A stretch of 64,000 bases of DNA. Source: Lepisosteus oculatus (lineage: Eukaryota > Chordata > Actinopteri > Semionotiformes > Lepisosteidae). The stretch is taken from NCBI RefSeq assembly GCF_040954835.1, contig NC_090698.1, positions 70,191,284-70,255,283 of the forward strand, read 5' to 3'. This document shows positions 18,601 to 21,600 of this stretch, piece after piece (within the stretch, counting starts at the first letter, position 1; the number at the start of each line of letters is the position of its first letter). A program made the translations under genes and the position numbers. The notes below the pieces were generated by a model, which was not told where the DNA came from, searched no databases, and saw only the letters and a program-made list of their open reading frames with translations.

Positions 18601-21600
18601 GTCACGTCCCATAACCACAGCAGACCCCTTCCCTAATGAGGTTCCTGATGTTCGCGAAACAGTTCTTCCCCTGTTGGACGTAAATCGAAGCTACAATATC
18701 CGATGACTTATCTGTAAAGACCGGTTTTAGAGAAAAATGAACGTTGGCAGCAAGGGGCTGGAAGCGGTCTGTGTCAAATCGGAATCGGTCCCGCCTGACC
18801 CGCCCGTTGATCGGGGTTCTCTGCTCCTTCCCTGCCGGCACGCCTCAGGAGCACTTCCTCTTCGATAAGCCCGTCTCTCCGCTGCTCGTCGCCTCTGGCA
18901 TGGCCAGAGACTGGCCTGACGCTCGCGGGATTTGGTAAGCAGGCAGAAGTAGAACCGAGAACCCCAGAAAATGCCTTTACAGGGCATCCCCAGTCTCACC
19001 CTAGCCCTGAGTGCCCACCCTTGAGTTCGGACCTTATTTTTCCCCGCACACCACTGATCTACTGTACTGTGTATCCCAACCACAGCTCGGGTGTCAAAAA
19101 AAAAATGTGACACAAAAAATCTATCATGTTAGTCTATGAAGGAAGCCATTGTCTTTCTTTTCACTGTAAGTATGTTCTTGTAAGATACAATTCAGTTTTT
19201 ATTACATACAACATATAGTAATACAAAATAAAGGTAGTGTTAAGGTTATGCAGGAACAGGGTTCTGAACAAAAACAACTTTATGAGCCAGTATTTTTTCT
19301 TGCAGCTGTTGGTAAGCTCATGAATCCCAGTGCATTAGAGTTGCCCCCTGCTGTGTGTCCCTGGTGCTGTCCACTGTCCTGCTGCAGTGAACGGACAGGT
19401 GATTAGTGACTGTGCTGGACTTTATTACCGAGAGACCCAGCAGTCCGGTCAGGATTTGGACCTTCAATAGAAACGGTTGCAGGCAATGTGAGGTGACTTC
19501 CTGAGCCCTGCTCCTTGCTTGTTTGGAGAAAGAAGCTTTGTCCGAACGCGCTACACAGCCGTTCCGTTTGCTAGCTGGCTAGGATCCCTCCCTCACCCTC
19601 TGTTCCCTGTGACCTCTCTGACCTTCAGGACCACTTCCTGTTTGATAAGCCGGTTTCCCCGCTGTTGACGTGCGCCGGGATGGCGCGCGACTGGCCAGAC
19701 GCCAGGGGAATCTGGTAGGGGGCGGGGGCGTGAGTGGGCGTGCCTGACCGCATGCCCGTCTGACCTCCTGCCGGAGCCCTGCACGCGTGGCATGCATCTC
19801 AGGAAGCTCAAGGCTGGCTCGGTGGGGCTGCGCCCACGCAAGACAATTCTGACAGCTTAGCGTGCAACCACGTGTTGGGACAGGTGATGCAGTGATGCAG
19901 TGTCATTTCAATCACCCCCATCAATAAGACCATGCAGTTAAAAATCCGTAAACAGTTGTGCAAAGGGCTGGTGCATGGCTCTAACTATCGACACATTCCC
20001 AATTTGAATGATCACATGAACATGAACACACGAACTTGGATTATTGTATAAGCATTCATGAGGATGTTGGGAATTGAATACTGTACAATTGCACATCTGA
20101 AATCCCTGTCTGTATATTTGAGTCAAATCTGAATTGCATAGCTGTGGTGCTTTCAGTGCACTGCACTAAAGACTTATCGTAGTCTGATTGAAGTGGAACT
20201 TCTTGCTGCTGGCTTAATTGGACCAACTTCTCCTGACTCTCCAGATTCTGGAGCTTTAGAGAGACCTAGAAAAGCTGCAGACACGTCAGCCTACCAAGGC
20301 CACACTGGATGGCACCAGTGTGGCCTTGTGATGGCACCCAGCACTATACTTGAAACATGCACATTTCTGCTGGATTAGAAAAACCTTGGGCTTGAAATTA
20401 ACTTTGCTTCCTGATGTATAAAACTAAGCTTCGAAATCACCTACTTACACCGGTTTGATTAAATGAGTTTGAAGAGACATGAATGCTATTATATTTACTT
20501 TTTTAAAAGAAGGTGATGCAGATAACCCTGGTATCGGTTTACCATCATCACTATTTGCCAAACTAACCCCATGGAATGAAGGAGCCTTTCTGTGATATTG
20601 TTCGTGATAATTGTAAAACAAGCTAAATCCTTCATGCTGATGTTGTGGATTAACTATTATACCCCGAAAGAATAAAATGCTCACACAGATTCCATCCAAC
20701 AGAGATGTAACCATTTCACCTGTAACTCTAGAGCAAGAGTAAATTAATATCAATCGTTCAACCTGTTTATGAAAGAATGAAAAACAGTGTCCAACCACCC
20801 TTTTACAGCTAATAAATATAACAGGATAAGATGGGGTAAGTCCAAAATTCCATAGGGTGGTAAAAAAAAAGTCTCTTTGCAAAAATATTTAGGTTTAGAT
20901 CTCTGCAAAATCTCTATAGATTTAGGGAAATATATTTTAAAATAACAGTGCTGTTTTGTATTGGACCTTTACAGTCTACAGGAAAGGATATGCTTTTGCC
21001 CTTGACAGCTAAAACAATATTGAAATCATGGGGTTGACTGGGAATAATTTCTTAGCTCACCTTGCATTTACATCTCTTGTAGTTTTTCACACCAGAAAAT
21101 CTGCGCATGTTATATTACCGTACTCGGCTCGGAAAATGTGTTCGAATTCTACTTTCCTGTGGGCAGGCATAACTTTGACAAGACCTTCTTGATATGGATC
21201 AATGAGGAGGACCACACCCGAGTCATTTCCATGGAGAAGGGCGGCAACATGAAGCGGGTGTTTGAGAGGTTCTGCCGGGGCCTGAAAGAGGTACAGTCTG
21301 TCTGTCTTCACTGCAGCTACTGTCCACATAGTGAGAGATCTCCGGAGTTCAGCTTCCTGTGATTTCATCTGATTTCCATCTCCTGAGGTCACTATATCTA
21401 CCAATGACATCATAACAACAAGAACAACAACAACAACAACAACAATAATAATAATAATAATAATTGGACATCCATTTGCTTGCCAGTAATTAATGTAATG
21501 GGACCGGTGCACTGATCCAGTTACAACAGTGACGTGTCTCTCCTGTCTCTGGATTGGTCACTGTCTGGGATGTGGCTCTGTGTCTGCTGGGATCCCACGA

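Follow-up and report, generated by a model that had tools for sequence, protein, structure and literature searches.

A candidate pair of mutually exclusive homologous exons in a mitochondrial creatine kinase gene of Lepisosteus oculatus

A mitochondrial creatine kinase gene of Lepisosteus oculatus, for which the name CKMT2 is favored, carries two adjacent versions of its fifth exon, 5a and 5b. We consider it very probable that these form a mutually exclusive homologous exon pair. The gene lies in a 64,000-nucleotide stretch of DNA (the window), where nine exon positions, the first starting at 15495 and the last ending at 25186, encode, by conceptual splicing, a 417-residue enzyme with either 5a or 5b. 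The features are as follows.

15495..15643, + strand: CKMT2 exon 1, with the start codon and the N-terminal presequence
16373..16571, + strand: CKMT2 exon 2
16821..16916, + strand: CKMT2 exon 3
17834..18055, + strand: CKMT2 exon 4, ending on a full codon followed by GTGAGC
18849..18934, + strand: exon 5a, 86 bp, donor TTG/gtaagc, the following W codon split at the border
19629..19714, + strand: exon 5b, 86 bp, donor CTG/gtaggg, protein identical to that of CKMT1 exon 5
19666..19668, + strand: TGA, met when 5a and 5b are both included
21167..21290, + strand: CKMT2 exon 6, with a TAA (21170-21172) read when 5a and 5b are both skipped
22520..22654, + strand: CKMT2 exon 7
24300..24425, + strand: CKMT2 exon 8
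25070..25186, + strand: CKMT2 exon 9, carrying the stop codon

By full-length similarity, the gene looks mitochondrial rather than cytosolic, scoring 766 to 794 bits against six mitochondrial chains among solved structures and 577 against the best cytosolic chain. The name CKMT2 was given in an earlier note on this DNA. Exons 5 and 6 scored 158.8 bits with human S-type 4Z9M, 155.4 with 1CRK and 147.6 with U-type 1QK1, and over the full length 4Z9M (782 bits) exceeded three U-type chains (772 to 774). Against the name, the U-type chain 7U5I reached 794 bits, in a match extending over the presequence, and 1CRK (766 bits) fell under the U-type chains. The C5 gene that we call CKMT1 scored 766 for the U-type versus 740. 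With full-length scores this mixed, the sarcomeric type (CKMT2) is favored over the ubiquitous type for the window gene but not proved. The intron after exon 7 also contains a tandem array at 22883-23151, with a 37-base unit in 7.3 copies.

The earlier note had described two 86-bp exons separated by 694 bp, and we found both, in equal phase, each preceded by AG and followed by GT. Each begins with a complete codon at its left border and splits TG/G at its right border. Between them 25 of the 86 bases differ, and the only residues changed are 223 (E in 5a, D in 5b), 236 (V, T), 237 (A, C) and 238 (S, A). As adjacent internal exons of 86 bp each, in the same frame and with the residue kept in 24 of 28 full codons, they have the properties of homologous exons. 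The Nei-Gojobori (NG86) count gave 15.8 silent and 9.2 replacement changes, close to the “about 17 silent” claimed before. Third positions differ at 17 of 28, and comparable fourfold sites at 9 of 11.

This resemblance is not due to chance. When the 250 AG-86-GT stretches on the + strand of the window were scored against the exon-5 peptide, the top scores were 158 (5b), 137 (5a) and −11. Local alignment of 5a with 5b scored 77, whereas the best of 300 shuffles reached 28 (0 of 300 as good). Flanks of 100, 300 and 600 bases on each side of the two exons had no likeness beyond that of shuffles (fractions, 0.10 to 0.84; 300 shuffles each). Exons that are alike between flanks that are not fit a constraint on the exons alone. 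A DNA search of the whole genome (1.2 Gb, 813 contigs) with 5a recovered 5a and, at 80%, one gene for a cytosolic creatine kinase; its sensitivity was too low to pick up 5b.

The reading frame bears directly on how the exons could be used. Since 86 is 3 × 28 + 2, both double inclusion and skipping shift the frame. The earlier reading that a working message needs exactly one of the two exons was borne out: either exon gives the full 417-residue open reading frame, 5a and 5b together run into the TGA at codon 264, and a message with neither meets the TAA at codon 224, the second codon of exon 6. An early stop with exon junctions further downstream usually leads to nonsense-mediated decay. Downstream junctions remain after either early stop, so decay of both messages is expected.

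The same frame shift could serve regulated unproductive splicing, in which 5a would chiefly be included together with 5b and the decay-prone message would reduce CKMT2 output. Double inclusion does stop inside 5b, with junctions 6/7, 7/8 and 8/9 far downstream. However, a poison exon needs no amino acid conservation, and 5a has kept its 24 residues at near-saturated silent sites. We regard this alternative as very improbable.

Both exons appear to have serviceable splice sites. On a vertebrate donor matrix, the 5a donor scored 7.7 bits and the 5b donor 6.9, each exceeding five of the gene's seven other donors; splice sites were judged by sequence score alone. We then considered devices that could enforce exclusion. 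At 694 nt, the intron between 5a and 5b is too long for steric exclusion, for which the limit between donor and branch point is about 50 nt. There is no distant branch point before 5b, where the AG-free zone extends to −48 only. None of the donors gtgagc, gtaagc and gtaggg resembles the minor-type consensus. RNA looping at 5a was not supported: the inverted repeat 18813-18839/18939-18965 folds with a z score of −0.04, and 93 of 200 shuffles were as good. RNA pairing at 5b was likewise not supported as a device: exon 4, which has no sign of alternative use, has a flank-pairing fraction of 0.035 versus 0.135 for 5b (5a, 0.050; eight exons compared).

Two further observations concern the surroundings of 5b. 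The region 19580-19760 folds better than shuffles (z, −2.65; 3 of 200), pairing the upstream pyrimidine tract with a G-rich stretch past the donor. The 1,452-nt intron after 5b contains four GCATG motifs, one of them as TGCATG (19972), and the two other introns near 5a and 5b contain none; these are raw counts and are not used as evidence.

That no hard-wired exclusion device was found counts against the exclusive-pair reading. The frame appears to be the sole visible guard of exclusivity in CKMT2. In a survey of human pairs, 377 (60%) of the clusters contain exons with a length not divisible by three (PMC5740500), which would make a frame-guarded layout usual.

The earlier note had proposed an old duplication kept by selection, and our simulations agree with it. 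An unselected copy was evolved beside a constrained copy with an equal number of mutation attempts, in 10,000 runs per setting. At 20, 30, 40 and 60 mutations per branch, 179, 2,035, 5,050 and 8,701 runs had at least 14 third-position differences. None of these 15,965 runs, out of 40,000 in total, kept at most four amino acid differences, a result that argues that 5a was under coding selection for most of its existence, past and present selection on 5a being inseparable in this test. In 6,000 other neutral-copy runs, none combined at most four amino acid differences with at least 15 third-position differences. Compared with the cytosolic gene at C3:1.93 Mb, 5a differs at 14 third positions and two residues, so the conclusion is independent of where 5a came from. 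We conclude that 5a was long under coding selection; its silent sites are near saturation.

The residues of 5a were then compared with 15 distinct kinase sequences among the matches listed. At position 223, all 12 listed sequences that cover it have D, and none has the E of 5a. At position 236, V occurs in none of the 15. These two residues could reflect a recent relaxation of 5a, which counts against the pair. Being confined to 5a among the listed sequences, they also favor the view that 5a was long selected and was recently retired, so that splicing now uses it hardly ever or not at all and drift has only lately set in. Against this, 5a has no stop, indel or splice-site loss, and its donor and acceptor are good. 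More than about 10 unselected substitutions are disfavored, the probability of at most four residue changes and no stop being 0.073 at 10 substitutions and 0.021 at 12. We find recent retirement unlikely and a coding exon in use the better reading.

Position 237 is A in 12 of the 15 listed sequences, C in two (4Z9M and 1CRK) and D in one. Within the pair, Cys237 belongs to 5b only. It is also found in CKMT1 of the gar genome, and human U-type creatine kinase (1QK1) has Ala there, so a cysteine at 237 is not essential to a mitochondrial creatine kinase. Position 238 is S in all six listed cytosolic creatine kinases and A in the four mitochondrial ones and the five arginine or taurocyamine kinases. 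The S238 that 5a has in common with the cytosolic enzymes allows for old retention, convergence or gene conversion.

The 5b core is TCAG, the mitochondrial type, as the earlier note had it, and CKMT1 of the same genome also reads TCAG. The earlier note's label “cytosolic-type” for 5a needs narrowing. The VASG of 5a does resemble LASG, but E223 and V236 are absent from the listed family sequences and the exon borders are of the mitochondrial type. The earlier mapping of the segment to the tryptophans Trp206 and Trp213 was numerically right, with exon 5 aligning to 1CRK residues 185 to 212 and the variable core to 198 to 200. The segment next to these tryptophans may belong to the monomer-monomer contact. 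In human cytosolic creatine kinases, residue 36, distant from the interface, is reported to alter dimer stability (PMC4754747), which suggests that small changes can matter.

We next looked at the other creatine kinase genes of this genome. The 14 matches of a protein search amount to four clear creatine kinase genes and one divergent creatine-kinase-like gene (C17). The motif of the latter reads SSPAQVGTGLR, and it is perhaps a noncatalytic paralogue. CKMT1 has the 86-bp exon once, with the same length, phase and segment as 5b and the same protein; it differs from the window gene in its single copy. The two cytosolic genes (C8 and C3:1.93 Mb) have LASG in this segment, which forms part of a longer exon and runs on from a preceding LID or LIR, so these genes are without an intron at the site of 5a's left border. 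By this comparison, 5a combines mitochondrial-gene exon borders with a core that appears cytosolic-like. Within 9.9-kb loci of CKMT1, C8 and C3:1.93 Mb, of which the CKMT1 locus includes matches to all nine exons, tblastn found one strong exon-5 match each, and no second AG-86-GT copy of exon 5 was present among their 40, 33 and 39 gene-strand stretches. That no second copy was found in this CKMT1 locus counts against the exclusive-pair reading. Viral and prokaryote collections yielded no relative, with 0 of 31 and 0 of 322 pattern matches confirmed.

The C8 cytosolic gene itself has two versions of an N-terminal coding exon, 714 bp apart (~4488 and 5202, reverse complement), with the sequences MPFGNTHNMMKMKYSTDDEFPDL... 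and MATLTIKRLSAEMEYPDL..., each with an ATG and a following GT. Chicken brain creatine kinase has two alternative N-terminal exons, Ba and Bb, and the C8 pair looks similar to them. Ba/Bb and 5a/5b have in common the enzyme family and alternative coding-exon copies; Ba/Bb differ in changing the N terminus and start codon, and in belonging to a cytosolic gene.

The likeness of 5a to cytosolic genes raises the question of its origin. The VASG core could have come by gene conversion: a cytosolic gene, the nearest being C3:1.93 Mb, would have donated it to a tandemly duplicated exon 5. Counted in bases, 5a differs from the C3 gene at 17 positions, from the other cytosolic gene at 21, from CKMT1 at 23 and from 5b at 25. 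Fourfold differences are also fewest with the C3 gene (6 of 14), and S238 occurs in none of the nine listed sequences that are not cytosolic. In an unrooted nucleotide tree, weakly supported with five sequences and 84 sites, 5b and CKMT1 grouped at 71% and 5a stood apart, as conversion would have it. However, the longest run identical with the C3 gene is 15 bases, a length attained in 20% of permutations, and 68 Mb separates donor and target on one contig. We hold gene conversion to be possible, though not the likelier origin. It concerns the origin of 5a and not its use, and can hold together with a mutually exclusive pair.

For the age of the pair, we compared fourfold differences. These are 9 of 11 for 5a and 5b, 11 of 14 between 5b and the corresponding exon of CKMT1, and 80 of 142 for CKMT1 and CKMT2 over eight exons; 9/11 and 80/142 are not significantly different (P = 0.08, one-sided; P = 0.12, Fisher). 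Since the silent divergence of the pair is at the CKMT2/CKMT1 level for this exon, the pair is probably old. From these few sites near saturation, the exon duplication looks about as old as the CKMT1/CKMT2 gene duplication, or older. A codon-model tree gave extreme branch lengths and was left unused.

Mutually exclusive homologous exons are known from other genes. As described in PMC12487847, PMC5740500 and PMC7969005, PKM 9/10, SLC25A3 and OGDH 4a/4b share tandem exon copies, near-equal segments, one copy per message and a place among energy-supply genes. The CKMT2 pair differs from them in gene and fold, and in being known here from its DNA. In OGDH, exclusivity comes from branch points near the first exon's donor (PMC7969005), a device absent in CKMT2. 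A proteomics study of human genes assigned an age of at least 460 My to each of its 60 homologous-exon events (PMC4465641), so an old, subtle pair would be typical of its kind. The homologous exon pair is thus a known kind of arrangement. For the CKMT2 case, no earlier description was found in the literature searched, among the titles and abstracts of the matches listed. PMC5740500, PMC9741552 and PMC4465641 contain neither “CKMT” nor “creatine” in their main text, though a supplementary table may have an entry. These three surveys start from human genes, as far as their main texts go, so a pair kept elsewhere in vertebrates and lost in ours would escape them.

Taken together, we propose the following model. 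Exon 5 of the mitochondrial creatine kinase gene would have been tandemly duplicated long ago, with 5b keeping the mitochondrial TCAG core and 5a having a cytosolic-like VASG core. Splicing would place either 5a or 5b between exons 4 and 6, so that the gene makes two enzymes of 417 residues that share a presequence. Messages with both or neither would be shifted in frame, stop early and be removed by nonsense-mediated decay, so that exclusivity would be imposed by the frame and not by splice-site crowding. We infer that 5a is spliced in and that the choice may be regulated by tissue or stage. Because the remaining protein is shared, residues 236 to 238 would tune subunit contact or stability, not catalysis.

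The creatine kinase isoenzymes are a textbook case of a function split over four genes. Here, one creatine kinase gene also seems to split its function by splicing, at a place where the mitochondrial and cytosolic enzymes differ. The pair would be a clean natural swap experiment, with changes at three residues of the core and one at the border and all else constant. More tentatively, the pair may be as old as the CKMT1/CKMT2 split or older, with the second exon lost in lineages like ours. If so, the gar would have a mitochondrial enzyme that changes its dimer-contact character through splicing, and early vertebrates would already have made two splice forms of the enzyme, one of them cytosolic-like in the segment at the subunit contact.
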